IMG/VR virus record: IMGVR_UViG_3300021090_000061
Location: 1 to 39,827 of that record
Reading direction: 5' to 3' (one strand)
Origin: a virus
Length of the DNA stretch: 39,827 bases
Below, piece after piece: positions 1,852 to 32,836 of this stretch; the stretch's first letter is position 1, and every line of letters starts with the position of its first letter. A model generated the notes under the pieces. It worked only from the letters and a program-made list of their open reading frames with translations. It searched no databases and was not told the DNA's origin. Made by a program: the position numbers and the translations under genes.

Positions 1852-2509
1852 TTTATTGGAAAGACTTAAAGCGTTAGTCCACGCAACTGGAGATGAAAAT
1901 CCCCAGTCGTCTCAAAGCCGTGAAATAGGGAAACTTGTTGAAGCTCTTGCCAAAGCGCAAAACACAATGGAAGAAGCAAAAGAAGACTCAAAAAATCCTT
2001 TTTTTAAGTCTAATTATGCAGATTTAACAAGTGTGTGGAGGGCATGTAAAAATTCGCTAAGCACTAATGGATTAGCTATTTCTCAAACTACTGCATTTAT
2101 GGGTGGACAGCTTTTCTTAGTTACTACATTAGCCCATTCGTCTGGAGAATGGATGAAGGGATACTACCCATTGTATTTATCTAAGCAAGACCCACAAGCT
2201 GTAGGGTCTGCGATTACATATGCTAGACGTTATGCTCTGGCTGCAATCGTGGGTGTTTGCAAAGAAGGTGAAGACGATGATGCCGAGAAAGCACAGGATC
2301 GCAAAGCTCCTAAAGAGCTAATCACCGATGAGCAGCTAAAGCAGTTGATCAAGACAGTCGGCACAGATTTAGAAGCAAAAGACATCATTCTCAAACGTTT
2401 TGGCGCAAAGGCATTCAATGAGATCCCGAAAGAGAATTTTGCCACAATGATGACCTGGTTAGAAACGCGCATGAAGGAGAAGGCAAATGGAAAAACAAGA
2501 GTGGCTTAG
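1820..2509 (+). CDS. erf: ERF-family single-strand annealing protein
   Basis: A 229-residue recombinase of the ERF superfamily, which coats single-stranded DNA and anneals complementary strands in phage recombination. The conserved core is clear: KNPFFKSNYADL at about residues 58-69 and QDPQAVGSAITYARRYAL at 123-140, followed by an acidic stretch. I chose ATG 1820 because AAGGAG lies 6 bases upstream; an in-phase ATG at 1766 lacks a ribosome site. The gene overlaps the exonuclease gene by 23 bases, and the two probably form a two-component recombination pair like lambda Bet/Exo. Product size is normal for the family. Confidence 0.9.
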   Translation: MSTMTTEQMNSLLERLKALVHATGDENPQSSQSREIGKLVEALAKAQNTMEEAKEDSKNPFFKSNYADLTSVWRACKNSLSTNGLAISQTTAFMGGQLFLVTTLAHSSGEWMKGYYPLYLSKQDPQAVGSAITYARRYALAAIVGVCKEGEDDDAEKAQDRKAPKELITDEQLKQLIKTVGTDLEAKDIILKRFGAKAFNEIPKENFATMMTWLETRMKEKANGKTRVA

Positions 2510-3359
2510 ACAAAGAAAGATTGGATCCAGTGATGCAATTGTGATTATGGGTTGTGCTCCTAGAAACTGGGAGATCAACACGCCGTATAAGCTTTGGCAA
2601 CAGCGGATCAACCAAACCGAAACCGTAGAAACTGCGCCGATGCAAAAGGGTAAATTCTACGAAGAAGAGGCAACACAGTGGGCAGAAGATCACTTAGGGG
2701 TTCTGCTTGAGAGACAAAAGTGCGTATTCCATCCAGAGAATGGATTCATGAGCGCGACTTTAGATGCCGTTTCATTTGATGGTCGTTTGATCGTAGAGGT
2801 CAAAACGAGCCAGCAAGTATTTATGCAGATCTCGGCCGGCAAAGTTCCTCCCACGTATTATCCACAGGTTCAGCATCAATTAGAGGTCCAAAGAGCAGAC
2901 AAATGTTATTTGATAGGTTACGTTCCTGCATCCGATGGTGATGAGCCGATGGGAGCATGCATCGAAGTTAAGCGCGACGATAAGTATATTGCAGATATGA
3001 TGAAGAAAGAACAGATCTTCTGGGAATGCTTGACCACTTTCACCCCTCCAGAGCTAACAGCCTGGGACTATGAAGAGCGTAGCGATGTTTTATGGGATGA
3101 GGCTGCATACGAGTTCCTTATGCTTGAAAAAGAACTTGAGGCATATGAATCGTTAAAGAAGAAGCGCGATGAGTTTAGAGAGCGTTTAATCGAGCTTGCT
3201 AACGGTCGTAATAGCCGGGGTAGCGGCGTTAAGCTAACTCAGTCCTTCCCCAAAGGACGGATAAACTACGAGTCTATTCCTGAACTGAAGGTGGTAGATT
3301 TAGAAAGATACCGCGAGCCGTCTAGAGAAAGATGGACAATCTCAAAATTTGGTAGCTAA
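2487..3359 (+). CDS. YqaJ-family 5'-3' exonuclease (lambda Exo-like)
   Basis: A 290-residue PD-(D/E)xK nuclease of the YqaJ/lambda exonuclease family, which resects double-stranded ends to give the single strands that ERF anneals. Visible motifs are GSSDA (13-17), the Glu cluster FYEEEA (58-62), the catalytic D93 in TLDAV, E104-V-K106 in IVEVKTS, and the Q-x-x-H-Q element (127-131). A charged coiled coil follows at about 210-240. ATG 2487 is preceded by AAGGAGA. It is the last gene of the early operon, before the terminator at 3417-3443. Confidence 0.93.
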   Translation: MEKQEWLRQRKIGSSDAIVIMGCAPRNWEINTPYKLWQQRINQTETVETAPMQKGKFYEEEATQWAEDHLGVLLERQKCVFHPENGFMSATLDAVSFDGRLIVEVKTSQQVFMQISAGKVPPTYYPQVQHQLEVQRADKCYLIGYVPASDGDEPMGACIEVKRDDKYIADMMKKEQIFWECLTTFTPPELTAWDYEERSDVLWDEAAYEFLMLEKELEAYESLKKKRDEFRERLIELANGRNSRGSGVKLTQSFPKGRINYESIPELKVVDLERYREPSRERWTISKFGS

Positions 3360-3416
3360 AAATATTTAAAATATTTATTTTACAAATACGGCCTTCTACA
3401 AAACCTCTCTTGGTTT

Positions 3417-3443
3417 CCCCGGGTTAAACGCCTGGGGTTTTTT
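3417..3443 (+). terminator. Intrinsic terminator of the early operon
   Basis: A 7-bp stem with one G-U pair (CCCCGGG 3417-3423, CCTGGGG 3431-3437), a 7-base loop and six T. It closes the ERF/exonuclease operon and overlaps the stop codon of the convergent minus-strand gene. Confidence 0.85.
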
Positions 3444-3723
3444 CTTCCCTGAAGCTTTCCCATCTTGAAAGAACATTTTTCCTTAGAACCTGTAAATAAT
3501 CTTCAAGATATTTTTCTTTATCCTTTCCTAAAATAAATAAATATGAAGCTAGCTGTCCGCTATAAATATATTGAATTGCATTTAGATAAATCTGAATGTC
3601 TTTGCAATTGGTTTCTACAACAATATCTTCTAGAGCATCGTTTACTGCATTGCACATCTGATCAAAGTGATCGATTGCATTGTCCGGTAAGTCCCCAATC
3701 TGCAATATATTTTCTCTTTTCAT
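3424..3723 (-). CDS. Hypothetical helical protein
   Basis: A 99-residue mostly helical protein with several Asp and Asn, two Cys (residues 23 and 40) and no recognised domain. Its start ATG overlaps the stop of the upstream gene in an ATGA, so the two are translationally coupled. The coding end runs into the terminator shared with the early operon. Confidence 0.65.
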   Translation of the reverse strand: MKRENILQIGDLPDNAIDHFDQMCNAVNDALEDIVVETNCKDIQIYLNAIQYIYSGQLASYLFILGKDKEKYLEDYLQVLRKNVLSRWESFREEKTPGV

Positions 3724-3923
3724 TTTACCTTCCTTGGCCTTCCCCTTTTCTTCTTCATTTCAATAACTTTATTCCCATCGACTGGCTTCCACATTATCAA
3801 AGCTTCGAGCCTTTTAATCCTTCGAATTAAGTATATCACTAGAATTAAAATAATGTTTATAGTTAATACTAATGCGCCTTGAATGCAAAGATCGAATAAG
3901 CTTAATAAAATATTACCATCCAT
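3720..3923 (-). CDS. Membrane protein with C-terminal AT-hook-like tail
   Basis: A 67-residue protein with one strong hydrophobic helix (about residues 14-33, ALVLTINIILILVIYLI) followed by the basic segment RRIKR. By the positive-inside rule the C-terminus faces the cytoplasm. That tail ends KKKRGRPRKVK, which contains the AT-hook core R-G-R-P flanked by Lys/Arg. The protein could hold AT-rich DNA at the membrane. A good AAGGA precedes the start. The motif is seen; the DNA-tethering role is inference. Confidence 0.6.
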   Translation of the reverse strand: MDGNILLSLFDLCIQGALVLTINIILILVIYLIRRIKRLEALIMWKPVDGNKVIEMKKKRGRPRKVK

Positions 3924-3962
3924 TGGGAAGTCCTTTTTTTAACACAAAAATGATAGCAGATG

Positions 3963-3999
3963 GAAAGAAAAATGGGCAGGATTATGGAGAAACCCGCCC
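3963..3999 (-). terminator. Intrinsic terminator on the minus strand
   Basis: A 7-bp stem with one G-U pair (GGGCAGG 3974-3980, CCCGCCC 3993-3999), a 12-base loop and, on the minus strand, ATTTTTCTTT directly after. It lies about 265 bases downstream of the minus-strand promoter at 4270-4297, so together they bound a short transcription unit. Confidence 0.65.
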
Positions 4000-4263
4000 A
4001 AAAATGGCACCCTTCTAAACGTAAAGGTTATTGATATGCCTAGAAGTCCTGGGTTACCGCTGACAGTTTCAATGCCGCTATCCAGGTTTAAGATCCACGT
4101 GCCTGAGGACCTGTAGCTTCAGAGGAACACTCTTTAGCTGACTTCAGCCTATCTGAAAATCTTTTTTTGTGGAAATAAATATTTAGGAGATTTAGGATGG
4201 CCCTACAAATAAGAAGAGGGGCCCAAACCAAGTTCCCCTCTAACGACTTATGAACTATATGAT
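3966..4263 (-). ncRNA. Candidate minus-strand small RNA or short-peptide transcript
   Basis: The 433 bases between the genes at 3923 and 4357 hold no convincing ordinary gene. They do hold a minus-strand sigma70-like promoter (4270-4297) and an intrinsic terminator (3963-3999), which predict a transcript of about 300 bases. It contains paired elements such as CCTGG/CCAGG flanking about 4048-4085. It also contains a possible 47-codon frame (4088-4231, TTG start, AGGGG at only 3-4 bases) that would encode a hydrophobic then basic peptide. Whether it is a regulatory RNA or a peptide messenger is open. Confidence 0.4.
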
Positions 4264-4315
4264 TCCCGAAGTATAGCATAACCGCTAAAATCTTCAAGAA
4301 AAAAAGTCGTTAGAG
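4238..4315. repeat. 12-bp inverted repeat flanking a promoter (operator-like)
   Basis: CTCTAACGACTT (4238-4249) and its exact reverse complement AAGTCGTTAGAG (4304-4315) flank the minus-strand promoter, one arm upstream of its -35 and one downstream of its start. Only one arm would be in that transcript, so a DNA-level role is more likely than an RNA hairpin: a repressor or initiator bound to both arms, possibly with looping. The rightward rep gene starts 41 bases beyond. Confidence 0.55.
4270..4297 (-). promoter_or_regulatory. Minus-strand promoter of the candidate small RNA
   Basis: On the minus strand TTGAAG (4292-4297) and TATACT (4270-4275) are 16 bases apart. The pair lies midway between the two arms of the inverted repeat at 4238-4315. 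Confidence 0.5.
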
Positions 4316-4356
4316 AAAAAAATAGGGTCTCTTCTTCTATAACCCATAGGAGAAGC

Positions 4357-5340
4357 ATGTCATATTCATCACACCATCATTCATTCGACATTAAAATAGC
4401 CGCCATATATGGCATTGAAAAAGCTCTTTTAATTCATCATTTCCAACATTGGATCAGATTAAATAGATTCAAAGGCAAAAATATTAAAGATGGAACCTGC
4501 TGGTCATATCAGACACGAGAATCTATCGCAGCGACTTTCCCCTATTTCACTATAGACTCTGTTCGCCATCATTTAAACGGCCTCGTGGAGTTAGAGATTC
4601 TGAAAGTGGGAAATTTTAATAAAAGCAAGTTCGACAAAACCCTTTGGTATGCATTCGAATGCGAAAGAGCATGGGGTGTAGACGACTTCTCGATTAAAGA
4701 ATTTTATACGAAAGGGGAAAACCCCAAATCGCAGGGAAAAAGCGATTTCTCCTGCGATGTGGGGAAAACCCCACATCGGGTTGATGAAAACCACAGTGGA
4801 TGTGGGGAAAACCCCAAACCTATACCAGATACTAAAAAGAAGATACTAAAGAAAGATAAGTATATTAGAGAGGGTCTCGCAGCTTTGCCTTCCGCTGACG
4901 CTCAGGCCCTCAAAGAAAAATTCCATTCAAAAATTTTAGAGCTAAAGCCAGACATAATGCTAAGAACCACCGAGAAGTGGGCTAGTGAATTCGCAAAGAT
5001 GCTCAGGATAGACAAGCGAGATCTCAAGACGATCGAGGATGTTATCGATTGCCTTGACCTGAAAGCCTTGACCTATGTGCAATCAGCGAAGAAGTTTAGA
5101 GATGAATTCGATAGTCTCGAAATAAAAAACTCATTAAGGCTAAAGAAAAAGCTAATAGAAGGCAATAGAATTTTCTTCTTAAAGCATAAAGAAGAATTGA
5201 AAGAAGAATTTAAAAACTTTTCATTTAACGACTCGGAAGTAATTGAGACAAAAACAGGAAAGAGAATTGGATTTAGCCTGAGCTATAGGGAATTTGCTCA
5301 AGAACTCGCGAACTTAATCGGAGGGACTATCCATGAATAA
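4357..5340 (+). CDS. Phage replication initiator (winged-helix N-terminus), carries the origin in its gene
   Basis: A 327-residue protein. Residues 1-100 form a winged-helix-like region starting with an aromatic/His segment (HHHSFDIKIAAIYGIEKALL) and containing WSYQTRESIAATFPYFT and RHHLNGLVELEILKVG, typical of N-terminal domains of phage and plasmid initiators. A low-complexity linker at about 120-155 (repeated GENPK, GKTPH) is encoded by palindromic iteron-like DNA. The C-terminal half is charged and helical and resembles helicase-loader-type segments, but I cannot name it. ATG 4357 has AGGAGAAGC before it. The overall plan is that of lambda O, with the origin inside the initiator gene. No helicase or polymerase gene is visible nearby, so host enzymes are presumably recruited. 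Confidence 0.7.
   Translation: MSYSSHHHSFDIKIAAIYGIEKALLIHHFQHWIRLNRFKGKNIKDGTCWSYQTRESIAATFPYFTIDSVRHHLNGLVELEILKVGNFNKSKFDKTLWYAFECERAWGVDDFSIKEFYTKGENPKSQGKSDFSCDVGKTPHRVDENHSGCGENPKPIPDTKKKILKKDKYIREGLAALPSADAQALKEKFHSKILELKPDIMLRTTEKWASEFAKMLRIDKRDLKTIEDVIDCLDLKALTYVQSAKKFRDEFDSLEIKNSLRLKKKLIEGNRIFFLKHKEELKEEFKNFSFNDSEVIETKTGKRIGFSLSYREFAQELANLIGGTIHE
4714..4865. other. Predicted replication origin inside the initiator gene
   Basis: Three copies of GGGGAAAACCCC lie at 4714-4725, 4761-4772 and 4804-4815. The middle copy is the centre of a perfect palindrome with 10-bp arms (4755-4778, arms CGATGTGGGG and CCCCACATCG). Between copies one and two are AAATCGC/GCGATTT (4726-4732, 4742-4748) and CGCAGG/CCTGCG (4730-4735, 4751-4756). 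An A-rich segment with repeated AGATACTAAA (about 4829-4850) follows and could be the unwinding element. Repeats plus an AT-rich tract inside an initiator gene match lambdoid origins. Confidence 0.65.
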
Positions 5341-29606: not shown

Positions 29607-31619
29607 TTAAACTTCCGCCTTCTTAGCGGTCTTCTCTTCTTCTTTCTCGTCTTCTCCAACGAGCATCTTCAATATATTTAATGCGCGCTCCAGATGGTCC
29701 AGATCGATCGTACTAAGTTCTTTGGCAGCCTTAGCACGGTCAAGATCACCACTCGCGCGGTCGTGCTGAGCTTGCGCCATACGCTCCACGGCAAGAGCAC
29801 GGTTTTCTTGGACTCTACTGGCTCTTTCGACGCCGAGACCTTCGTTGGCCATTGCTTTTGCTTTGAGGTCCTCAATTTGTGCTTGGAGAACCTGGATTTG
29901 GACTTGTTGTTGCTGCTCTGCTGCTTTGGCTTGGCTAGCTTCTTGCTGACCGATTGCATCGATAAGTTCCTTTTTGTTTTGTAAGGTTGAATTCTCAATG
30001 AGCAAGTTAGTCGGTACTGGGACTCCCAGCTCACGCATTTGAAGAAGCTGTTGCATCTGCATTTGCTTCTGAGTAGAAGTATTCAGACCGTCTTCAACGA
30101 CCGCGTCATATTTCCCGAAGGCCCGATTGTAAAACTCCTGAGTTGGCTCTTGCTGAATGATCCTTTGAATCTTGCCCGGCGTCCAGTTCTGTTGCATTAA
30201 ACGAATCTGAAGATTGCCGAGAAGTTTTTGAGATCTATCTAAATTGTCAAATAAACCTCGAAGGGTCGTAAGCCCCGCCCCCTGGCGAAGCATAGAGAGA
30301 ATACCAGCTTTCTCGTCGACAGCTGAGCCTAGTAGTTCCTCGTTGACCCCCGAAATTTCTTGTATCTCTCTTCCCAAAAGCTCGGATAGCTGCATCATCG
30401 AAGGAGGAATTTGAGGGGCTGGGATTTGTTGAACATCAGTGATTTGAGCATCGGCCTTTAATGCCAAACTTCTGCCTTGCCCTTGGAGGAAAGCGTCCTT
30501 AGGATTAACTAAAGCATTCTCTTTGAAGATAATACCGGAATTAACTTGAGACTCGAGAATGTCTAACTCGATAACCTTTCGACGATTATATAGATACTGA
30601 GCATCACGGAGACCACGGACCACCCCCTGGACACGCCAAGGGAAGGCGGGGATTTGCGGCTCATAATAGCCCCACACAGGTACAAAAGGATATTCATCGA
30701 TGCCAAGAGGGTTTGGGCCATGATACATCACCTTCCCTTGAACAGTGATCGCAAGCTTAACTGATGGGATTTCGTTATCGACGACAGTAATTTGGGGGTA
30801 AAAGCGGAGAAACTCCGCGAGGTCCTCGTCGTTTCCCTTCCATTCGATTGATTCGCCCGTTTGAGTGTCCACAAGCATTTTCTGGCGTCTTGAATCCATG
30901 TACCAGAACTCATCGTAGATAAGCAAATCCTGCATAGCATAGCTGAAGCTCTCTGGCATAAATTGAAACTTACCGTCACGATTTCCCCATCCCTTGAAGT
31001 TCTTGATCTCGTCTTCCCTGCCAGGAAGAAGGCTTAGAACCTGCTGCCTAGAAAGATATTTCCTCGTCCAGATGTCATTGCAGTCGGACAAATCCATTTT
31101 CTTGAAGTACGGATCAATCAGATAACCGTTGTAGGCAACATTGTCAACCTTAATATCGCCATTGACTGGATCATTTCGATAATCCACCCACAGACTCATG
31201 AGGTTCATCCCCCCAATGAGCGCGCCCTTAAAAGCATCTGAGATCGTATGTAAAATATCGCCGGTCTGGTTGCTGTGAAAAAGAAGCTTAGTGAATTGGT
31301 CGGCCGTTTGGTCGCTGCTTGACTCGACGGGAACACAGATCGTAGACTTTCGATGGTCCCTTTGATAGCCATCGATCATATTTACAACGCGACGGATACG
31401 GTTAAAGTTGAACTGGCGACGCCTAAAGGCTGGAACGTTTCCGTAAATATCGTTCCAAAGAGTTTGATCTCCAGCATGGAAACGATGGTCGATGTCCGCC
31501 TCGGACCAAAAATTTTGATTAATTGTTACGTTTTTAGTATAAGCATAGTCCATTCGTTTTAAAATGGAATTATCTTGGTCTACATAGTAACTATCTGTTA
31601 ATTGTGGGAATAAGGTCAA
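29607..31619 (-). CDS. Portal protein (P22-like)
   Basis: A 670-residue portal, the ring through which DNA enters and leaves the head. It matches the P22-type portal layout: an N-terminal helical region with WNDIYGNVPAFRRRQFNFNR and MIDGYQRDHRKST, the middle 'crown' stem region (RVVNMIDGYQ, GGMNLMSLWVDYRND), long helices (VIELDILESQVNSG, SMMQLSELLGREIQEISGVN), and a Gln-rich coiled tail (QQEASQAKAAEQQQQVQIQV). I take the start at TTG 31619, with GAGGAG 6 bases upstream; this start lies inside the end of the HNH gene. An earlier GTG start with the same N-terminal peptide survives at 32291. Confidence 0.9.
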   Translation of the reverse strand: MTLFPQLTDSYYVDQDNSILKRMDYAYTKNVTINQNFWSEADIDHRFHAGDQTLWNDIYGNVPAFRRRQFNFNRIRRVVNMIDGYQRDHRKSTICVPVESSSDQTADQFTKLLFHSNQTGDILHTISDAFKGALIGGMNLMSLWVDYRNDPVNGDIKVDNVAYNGYLIDPYFKKMDLSDCNDIWTRKYLSRQQVLSLLPGREDEIKNFKGWGNRDGKFQFMPESFSYAMQDLLIYDEFWYMDSRRQKMLVDTQTGESIEWKGNDEDLAEFLRFYPQITVVDNEIPSVKLAITVQGKVMYHGPNPLGIDEYPFVPVWGYYEPQIPAFPWRVQGVVRGLRDAQYLYNRRKVIELDILESQVNSGIIFKENALVNPKDAFLQGQGRSLALKADAQITDVQQIPAPQIPPSMMQLSELLGREIQEISGVNEELLGSAVDEKAGILSMLRQGAGLTTLRGLFDNLDRSQKLLGNLQIRLMQQNWTPGKIQRIIQQEPTQEFYNRAFGKYDAVVEDGLNTSTQKQMQMQQLLQMRELGVPVPTNLLIENSTLQNKKELIDAIGQQEASQAKAAEQQQQVQIQVLQAQIEDLKAKAMANEGLGVERASRVQENRALAVERMAQAQHDRASGDLDRAKAAKELSTIDLDHLERALNILKMLVGEDEKEEEKTAKKAEV

Positions 31620-32208
31620 TTGGCACTCCTCTTTTGGTGGCCGAGATCAAGACACCCTTGCATTTCTGAGAGCAAGTTTTTCCTAAATTTCTTGAATCGG
31701 CAGGGGTGAATGTATTCCCGCAAACAGAACAGTTTTTGGGCGAAACCTTCTTTAACATTTGAGAACGCGAACGACAGGATTGAGAACAATATTTGGTCCC
31801 ATTTAAATTCTTTGTGTGAAACTTTGTTGAGCATATTACGCAAATCCTCTCAACAGGCTCTCTTTCAACCCACCCCTTTTTAGAGGCGCCAGAAAGAAAC
31901 TTTCCCCCTTCTTCAGACCTATACCATTCATTTGCTTTATCTCGAGATTCTTTTCTTTGCATGGCTTCAACTTGCCTAATTGCAGAGAAGTGCATTGAGT
32001 GGTGCTCTTTCTTATGTATACACTCAAGATTTTCAATCTTGTTATCAGTACTATCCCCATTTTTATGATGAATGTGGTGATCAAGAGGGATCTCTCCAAA
32101 ATGATCTTCCCAAATTCGACGATGCAACCCATATGTTGTCTTATAATATCCTCGATTAAGAGTGTATTTCGTTCCTTTGTAAATAATAGTTTTGTGCTTT
32201 TCTTCCAC
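31591..32208 (-). CDS. HNH homing endonuclease with zinc fingers
   Basis: A 205-residue HNH nuclease. Core: RIWEDHFGEIPLDHHIHHKNGD (H44, H45, H47, H48), then N60 and H65/H69/H70 (DNKIENLECIHKKEHH). Two zinc fingers follow: C123-x2-C126 with C141-x3-C145, and C160-x2-C163 with C179-x3-C183. The end of the gene runs through the portal start region (last residues IPTINR), so its final codons and the portal's first codons share DNA. This is the structure expected of a mobile element that has landed just inside the portal gene. Confidence 0.9.
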   Translation of the reverse strand: MEEKHKTIIYKGTKYTLNRGYYKTTYGLHRRIWEDHFGEIPLDHHIHHKNGDSTDNKIENLECIHKKEHHSMHFSAIRQVEAMQRKESRDKANEWYRSEEGGKFLSGASKKGWVEREPVERICVICSTKFHTKNLNGTKYCSQSCRSRSQMLKKVSPKNCSVCGNTFTPADSRNLGKTCSQKCKGVLISATKRGVPIDLIPTINR

Positions 32209-32261
32209 AAACGGCCTTTTGGTTGTTTTTTGGAATATAATAACACATTATCCATTGGAAT

Positions 32262-32291
32262 ACAATCAGTTAATTGCGGAAATAATGTCAC
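32262..32291 (-). pseudogene. Remnant of the original portal gene start
   Basis: On the minus strand GTG 32291, with AGGA five bases upstream, begins MTLFPQLTDC. The current portal begins MTLFPQLTDS at TTG 31619. The two 30-base segments match at 24 positions; most differences are at third codon positions, so the peptide is nearly unchanged. From codon 11 this frame runs into unrelated sequence and the HNH element. It is therefore the displaced 5' end of the portal gene. Confidence 0.75.
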
Positions 32292-32399
32292 GGGTTTCCT
32301 GGCTTTATAAAATATTTTCTTTACATTAACCGTTTCGCTATTTCTTTTCAAAAAATAAGTCTTTGTGGCAAAGTTATTCGCAAACGGAGGATAAAAATA

Positions 32400-32567
32400 A
32401 TGATTCAACTAGATATTTTTGAAAAAAATGACTTAATATTAGTATTAAACGAGCTGAAAAGAGTGCGCGAGTCGTCTGAAGCCGTTAGACGAGGAGTGTT
32501 TAGAAGGGTGGCAGAGTTGGAACAGAAGCTTAAAGAGCTTCAGGAAGTAAGGTTGCAGGCGAACTGA
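32400..32567 (+). CDS. Short coiled-coil protein, 55 residues
   Basis: Starts at ATG 32400 (GGAGG upstream). The whole protein is a charged amphipathic helix with heptad spacing (LILVLNELKRVRESSEA, VAELEQKLKELQEV), a probable dimerising coil. Its stop overlaps the next start in an ATGA. It is the first of a chain of small plus-strand genes. Function unknown. Confidence 0.6.
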   Translation: MIQLDIFEKNDLILVLNELKRVRESSEAVRRGVFRRVAELEQKLKELQEVRLQAN

Positions 32568-32836
32568 TGAGATTAAAAATAATCGGATCTAAGGAAGTTA
32601 TTCTTTTTGACCCAGGGGGCAATATTGAAGAACCCGCAACTTTTACTAAACAGACATTTATTATTGAAACTGACGATATAAGTTTTGGTATCTTTCGAAC
32701 TGATCGGTCTGTATCGATCTTGCTTAAAAATGGGTATTTAGTGGTCGTTGAATTCGAGAGCGAAGAAGAAATGGACTACGTTTACGACCAACTTTTTCCT
32801 GAATATGAGCCTTGTTTTTGTGAGGATAACAAATGA
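32567..32836 (+). CDS. Small acidic hypothetical protein
   Basis: An 89-residue acidic protein (DPGGNIEEPATFTKQTF, ESEEEMDYVYDQLFPEYE) with two Cys near the end (CFCEDNK). It is beta-rich by pattern and couples to both neighbours by overlapping stop and start codons. No family recognised. Confidence 0.6.
   Translation: MRLKIIGSKEVILFDPGGNIEEPATFTKQTFIIETDDISFGIFRTDRSVSILLKNGYLVVVEFESEEEMDYVYDQLFPEYEPCFCEDNK

Follow-up and report, generated by a model that had tools for sequence, protein, structure and literature searches.

A probable HNH homing cassette at the displaced and replaced start of a phage portal gene

Selfish genes that reside in essential genes are usually tolerated because an intron or intein removes them or because the host protein still functions in two pieces. 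The portal locus of a virus recorded as IMGVR_UViG_3300021090_000061 in IMG/VR raises the question of how a phage keeps its portal gene when an endonuclease gene lies between two copies of that gene's start. The window, which is the whole stretch of DNA analyzed here, comprises positions 1–39,827 of the record (39,827 nt, one strand), and all features of the locus are on the minus strand. A P22-type portal protein gene of 670 amino acids with a TTG start occupies 29607–31619 (Pfam P22_portal, E = 2.8e-76; phrog_156 portal), a 205 amino acid HNH_3 endonuclease gene with a GTG start occupies 31591–32208 (Pfam HNH_3, E = 1.8e-14, 53.5 bits, cut-off 24.8), and a stub consisting of a GTG start and portal codons 2–9 lies at 32265–32291. 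The 645 bp between the two start copies (31620–32264) form the insert. In our judgement, this arrangement quite probably arose when a free-standing HNH homing cassette that carried a diverged portal start entered the portal gene behind codon 9.

The displaced copy reads GTGACATTATTTCCGCAATTAACTGAT (32291–32265) and the functional copy TTGACCTTATTCCCACAATTAACAGAT (31619–31593), and both encode MTLFPQLTD. The two match at 24 of 30 bases, or at 22 of the 27 common coding bases; four of the five differences within these 27 bases are silent third-codon changes, and the fifth is the start codon itself (GTG and TTG, respectively). Codon 10 also differs between the copies, being TGT (Cys) in the displaced and AGT (Ser) in the functional one. 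A match of 22/27 was reached by none of 2000 random sequences generated with a first-order Markov model of the 1.58 kb upstream region (maximum, 20), and the best chance match between an upstream region and the phage's own portal start in 98 relatives, with L003 (see below) left out, was 18/27. The earlier note on this DNA had reported the same nonamer at both starts with six, mostly third-codon, differences, which proved exact at the coordinates that it gave. Its description of the portal gene as split was overstated, as the functional portal is whole; the displacement of a nine-codon stub is the part that stands.

The HNH protein matches HNH_3 over residues 26–70 and has two C-terminal CxxC...CxxC zinc-finger-like motifs. 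Its C-terminal codons and stop overlap the replacement portal start, in another frame, by 29 bases (31591–31619), and the HNH stop TAG is formed within portal codons 9–10 (GAT AGT). A ribosome-binding sequence, GAGGAG, is located within the HNH coding sequence at 31631–31626, six bases upstream of the portal TTG. An HNH gene between the copies whose tail is the portal start, with GAGGAG and TTG, had likewise been described beforehand, and each of these elements is present where it had been placed. On the one basis of this overlap between HNH tail and portal start, we infer that portal translation would be coupled to the HNH gene. RNA folding at the new start and in the leader was no stronger than that of shuffled sequences (z = +1.8 and −0.4).

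The native start has left traces upstream. AGGA still precedes the stub start, and a conserved promoter-like motif, TGTAAAGAAAATATT, also written TGTAAAG.AAATATTT, is located at 32311–32325. This motif usually lies about 30–40 bases upstream of the portal start, and TGTAAAG.AAAT occurs within 80 bases of it in 39 of 99 relatives, as against a distance of 706 bases in the window. Its position in these relatives makes the motif a probable promoter, conserved across the phage group. The stub start also opens a frame of 151 codons (31836–32291) that overlaps the HNH gene in another frame, and a counterpart of 155 codons (4335–4802) is found in L003. This frame is probably a by-product, and possibly a brake on HNH translation.

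If the upstream copy is the displaced native start, relatives with an empty site should be fused at this point. A blastn search of 31400–32700 against 50,697 phage records gave no match, and the identity of the window portal to these records is only ~25%; the comparison therefore rests on metagenomic contigs, obtained by a portal search that yielded 47 loci and was later extended to about 100 distinct loci. The nearest relative, L001, is 86.5% identical at the DNA level over 2.3 kb and has one uninterrupted portal start, where GTGACATTATTTCCGCAATTAACCGAT comes after the leader GTTAATGTAAAGAAAATATTTGATAAAGACAGGAAGCCC and leads directly into portal codon 10. The displaced copy of the window is identical to this intact start at 26 of 27 bases and shares its upstream motif. 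The prediction made beforehand, that an element-free relative would have GTG at the equivalent of 32291 fused to codon 10, thus holds in L001. Another relative, L031, fuses the equivalent of window 32552–32259 directly to that of 31618–28881, with an overlap of 33 bases. The insert is absent from L001, L031 and L002, all of which have an empty site.

A second carrier was found in L003, the only one of the 99 relatives in which the motif is displaced as in the window (699 bases); the element-bearing phages found are thus two. In L003, a displaced ATG stub encodes MTLFPHQSS, the HNH tail overlaps a GTG portal start by 29 bases (5001–5029), and GGAG precedes this start, likewise within the HNH gene, at a spacing equal to that of GAGGAG in the window. 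The stub start lies 83 bases from the HNH start in both phages, and stub codon 10 is TGT or TGC in both. In L003, decay of the stub sets in at codon 6. An assembly artefact was rejected because the L003 contig has the same layout, comes from another metagenome than the window and differs in sequence. The two HNH proteins are 54% identical, with an identical catalytic motif (HHKNGD..DN..ENLE). Their dN is 0.41 at a dS of about 2.8, which is near saturation, and the resulting dN/dS of about 0.15 indicates that the HNH protein is under purifying selection. The HNH domain with its motif, the sporadic occupancy of the site and the absence of an intron or intein agree with a free-standing HNH homing endonuclease.

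The distribution of the element was compared with the portal phylogeny. The tree of portal codons 46–600 is ((((window, L001), L031), L002), L003), each step being strongly supported (100/99), and a clade of the window with L003 is rejected (p ~1e-9). Three empty lineages thus stand between L003 and the window. With the element at both ends of this ladder, either transfer or three losses are needed, and the element evidently moved or was lost repeatedly, as judged from this tree. The earlier suggestion that the element came from a related phage accords with its presence in L003, outside the window–L001–L031–L002 clade, which fits transfer between related phages.

The portal sequence immediately downstream of the new start bears on this choice. 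Over the first ~125 bases of the gene the window departs sharply from L001: the two are 69.4% identical in codons 10–45 vs. 87.5% in the core, and the nonsynonymous difference is 0.19 in these codons vs. 0.027 elsewhere. The drop of 18 points is the largest of all sister pairs (mean, −1; s.d., 5). Informative sites are L003-like at 20 of 33 positions in the first 135 nt vs. 78 of 423 later (Fisher, 4e-7). Portal codons 1 to ~43 (31491–31619), which are not L001-like by these sites and by the identity drop, are a probable imported flank, and this right flank points to transfer. The mosaic signal, which extends to about nt 125 beside the element, coincides with a region in which the empty pair L001–L031 is also diverged (73% vs. 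84%; −11 points), so that codons 10–45 may be fast-evolving or may have recombined more than once in this clade. In the tree of the first 129 portal bases (codons 1–43), an alignment too short to point to a donor, the pairing of window + L001 gains no support but is not rejected either (p = 0.33). Codons 1–9 of the functional copy stand no closer to L003 (18 of 24 positions) than to L001 (20 of 24), which speaks against the homing reading. Sequence comparison establishes the insertion, the empty site, the occurrence in a second lineage and an intact HNH domain under purifying selection, and gives a mosaic signal in the right flank.

The history behind these features can be read in other ways. 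The element may already have been present in the last ancestor shared by five phages (the window, L001, L031, L002 and L003), have been inherited vertically and then have been lost precisely in three lineages, whether the two starts recombined with each other or an empty phage supplied the site. The identical insertion point and 83-base spacing in the window and L003 would be expected from such descent, and the synonymous divergence of this pair is alike in the HNH gene (pS 0.73) and the portal gene (pS 0.77), although both values are near saturation. This history is nevertheless unlikely, since it demands three precise losses, and the window stub is nearly perfect relative to the intact L001 start, whereas the L003 stub has decayed. 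Another possibility is a local event, in which the HNH gene inserted non-homologously and duplicated about 30 bp of the phage's own portal start as target, the copies drifting thereafter. The overlap of the L031 alignment at the junctions is exactly 33 bases, and TTA at Leu3 and Leu7 is common to both window copies and L001 but not to L031, L002 or L003, so that functional codons 1–9 could be native. Against this, it is the functional copy, not the stub, that departs from L001, the departure reaches to about codon 43 and so past any short target duplication, and the same site in L003 would require a second hit, or inheritance plus three losses. Such a duplication is accordingly improbable.

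The HNH genes of many phages sit in group I introns, and the two start copies could be taken for the edges of exons, splicing then joining the first nine codons to codon 10. No Rfam group I or group II intron family matched at the gathering threshold, and relaxed thresholds gave chance matches only. The HNH ORF, moreover, runs into the second start, so that a ribozyme core would have to fit into the mere ~56 bases that the ORF leaves free; the insert is almost wholly coding, and splicing is unnecessary because the downstream copy is whole and brings a ribosome-binding site with it. A self-splicing intron is hence barely conceivable. An intein or split intein was also rejected, as no Hint or intein splicing blocks were found in the portal or HNH protein, and no Hint/intein domain was among the Pfam hits of these two window proteins. 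The HNH protein might instead be a packaging nuclease of the HK97 gp74 or GVE2 kind that belongs beside terminase and portal and is not mobile; HNH genes of this kind are indeed known from the terL–portal interval, including all 89 in lactococcal Skunavirus (PMC12724721). A resident packaging gene should not be absent from the site in the sister phages L001, L031 and L002 or displace the native portal start, and relatives of this HNH gene also occur within terminase inteins, so that this reading is most improbable.

The homing cassette that we favor suggests the following course of events. In a co-infected cell, the HNH protein would nick or cut an uninterrupted portal allele near codons 9–10, and repair of the break from an element-bearing phage would copy in the HNH gene, the new start and about 125 portal bases. 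At its right end the cassette would bear a portal start that has diverged from the native one and is joined to the last HNH codons, and the displaced native start would remain as a dead stub. The resulting allele would be immune to the HNH protein, its displaced target ending at codon 9 and its functional copy having another spelling; the divergence of the copies would also make it harder for them to recombine and so lose the element. Full-length portal, with the predicted N-terminus (M)TLFPQLTDSYYVDQ, would be made from the TTG inside the HNH end, the GAGGAG also being within the HNH gene, by ribosomes that terminate on, or load within, the HNH message. The phage thus evidently survives an insertion in its essential portal gene without an intron or intein.

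The closest likeness is to mobile ORFs of fungal mitochondria, in which an endonuclease ORF resides in an essential gene beside a foreign, diverged copy of the gene end. Such ORFs are found in four genes of Glomus sp. (atp6, atp9, cox2 and nad3; PMC3630166) and in atp6 of Allomyces macrogynus (Paquin et al., 1994, as cited in PMC3630166). In the fungal cases it is the displaced native end that matches relatives, the endonuclease-borne copy being foreign and diverged (PMC3630166), and the window follows this pattern: its displaced copy is 26/27 identical to L001, and its functional copy is 22/27 identical to the displaced one. The fungal elements replace the 3′ end, and so the C-terminus, of mitochondrial genes, whereas the 5′ end of a phage portal gene is replaced here, and the enzyme of the atp6 example is of the LAGLIDADG rather than the HNH type. 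Also unlike the fungal ORFs, the replacement in the window includes a ribosome-binding site and start codon that are overlapped by the nuclease coding sequence.

Phage elements share other features with the window. Like MobE and MobA of T-even phages (PMC2988022), the HNH gene is intronless and promoter-less, is located in or beside an essential phage gene and overlaps the frame of its neighbor. The genes that MobE and MobA occupy (Aeh1 nrdA and T4 gene 60) are split, each giving two functional polypeptides (PMC2988022), whereas in the window a complete portal is restored by the carried start. Among hidden out-of-frame HNH insertions, the ShiLan element is likewise mobile and lodged in a phage gene that has no known splicing element (PMC11855218); it stays open in frame with its host gene, whereas the portal gene of the window starts anew. 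The open-access literature yielded no phage report in which a homing gene brings a replacement N-terminus or gene start.

The terL–portal interval also holds relatives of the window HNH gene in Exiguobacterium phage EauM-23, Lactobacillus phage CL2 and the Yuaviruses PAE1 (L148), SN1 (L150) and FBPa53 (L154), and the last three were compared with L156 and L158. As in the window, the tail of the Yuavirus HNH gene serves as portal ribosome-binding site and start: AGGAGAAGAACC GTG lies 14 bases inside the HNH gene, at the place where the portal of empty-site Yuaviruses (Aergia, MP1412) starts with ATG GCC GAC. HNH-bearing and empty Yuaviruses are ~98.5% identical over the portal and 95–100% over most of the terL end, and the flanks of the HNH gene are sharply foreign relative to the empty-site phages, identity being 60–70% over the first 30–60 bases on the portal side and 80–87% over the last 100 bases on the terL side. 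Co-conversion beside the HNH gene is clear in these flanks (about 60–100 bases). Such a pattern marks a cassette that came in together with short stretches of foreign sequence on either side, a replacement portal start among them. The Yuavirus cassettes differ from that of the window in being inserted at the portal start itself and in having an HNH protein ~27–31% identical to the window's; no displaced multi-codon stub is present in PAE1, SN1 or FBPa53. Nor was a displaced-start signature found beside eight other phage HNH genes, the best match being 16/30 vs. 24/30 in the window and 19/30 in L003. Overlap of an HNH gene with a start therefore recurs, and the displaced stub is special to the present site.

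In Yuavirus PAC5 (L157), a different small ORF (405–794) occupies the same terL–portal junction and the first portal codons are again altered, so that the junction is a possible insertion hot spot. In Salmonella phage SEA1 (L155), a T-even relative, an HNH gene (1992–2597) runs in like manner 23 bases into the start of the prohead protease gene, with no displaced start.

Relatives of the window HNH gene are also encountered inside terL ORFs that hold inteins, as recognized by Pfam Intein_splicing or Hint_2. In L013 (562–1209 within 2–1423), L111 (1612–2262 within 260–2500), L038 (3749–4417 within 2481–4637), L049, L055 and L060, the HNH gene is in a different frame from terL and both are open throughout; in Highwayman (L147) and TJE1 (L153), the HNH-holding region is annotated simply as terL. 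The terL gene of L031 (2071–4351) looks as if it has been fractured by a split intein, with terL-N and intein-N (2071–3495), HNH (3499–4089), and intein-C and terL-C (4028–4351) in succession. The terL gene of the window is uninterrupted. Among the portal relatives, L141 and L142 belong to contigs that were assigned to Simkaniaceae and Parachlamydia bins. This is a hint that the phage group has chlamydial hosts, with which two further bins (Methanomicrobiales, Methylococcaceae) are at odds.

A more general strategy may be at work, in which the 3′ end of an intron-less homing gene evolves into the ribosome-binding site and recoded start of the essential gene that it interrupts, so that the gene is restored, the allele is immune to its own enzyme and precise loss is hindered; we regard the chances of this generalization, taken as a whole, as about even. 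If it is true, the window and L003 would be one set of instances and the Yuaviruses PAE1, SN1 and FBPa53 an independent one. Relative to free-standing homing elements, what appears to be new, and is well supported by the sequences, is the carried gene start, in a phage and with a tractable cultured counterpart. The parallel between the window and the Yuaviruses suggests that, beside intron, intein and a protein that works when split, phages have a further route, which is to carry a working, recoded gene start. This may be one reason why HNH genes beside phage structural genes can overlap the downstream start, and Yuaviruses on PAO1 would offer a laboratory system for the carried-start route.
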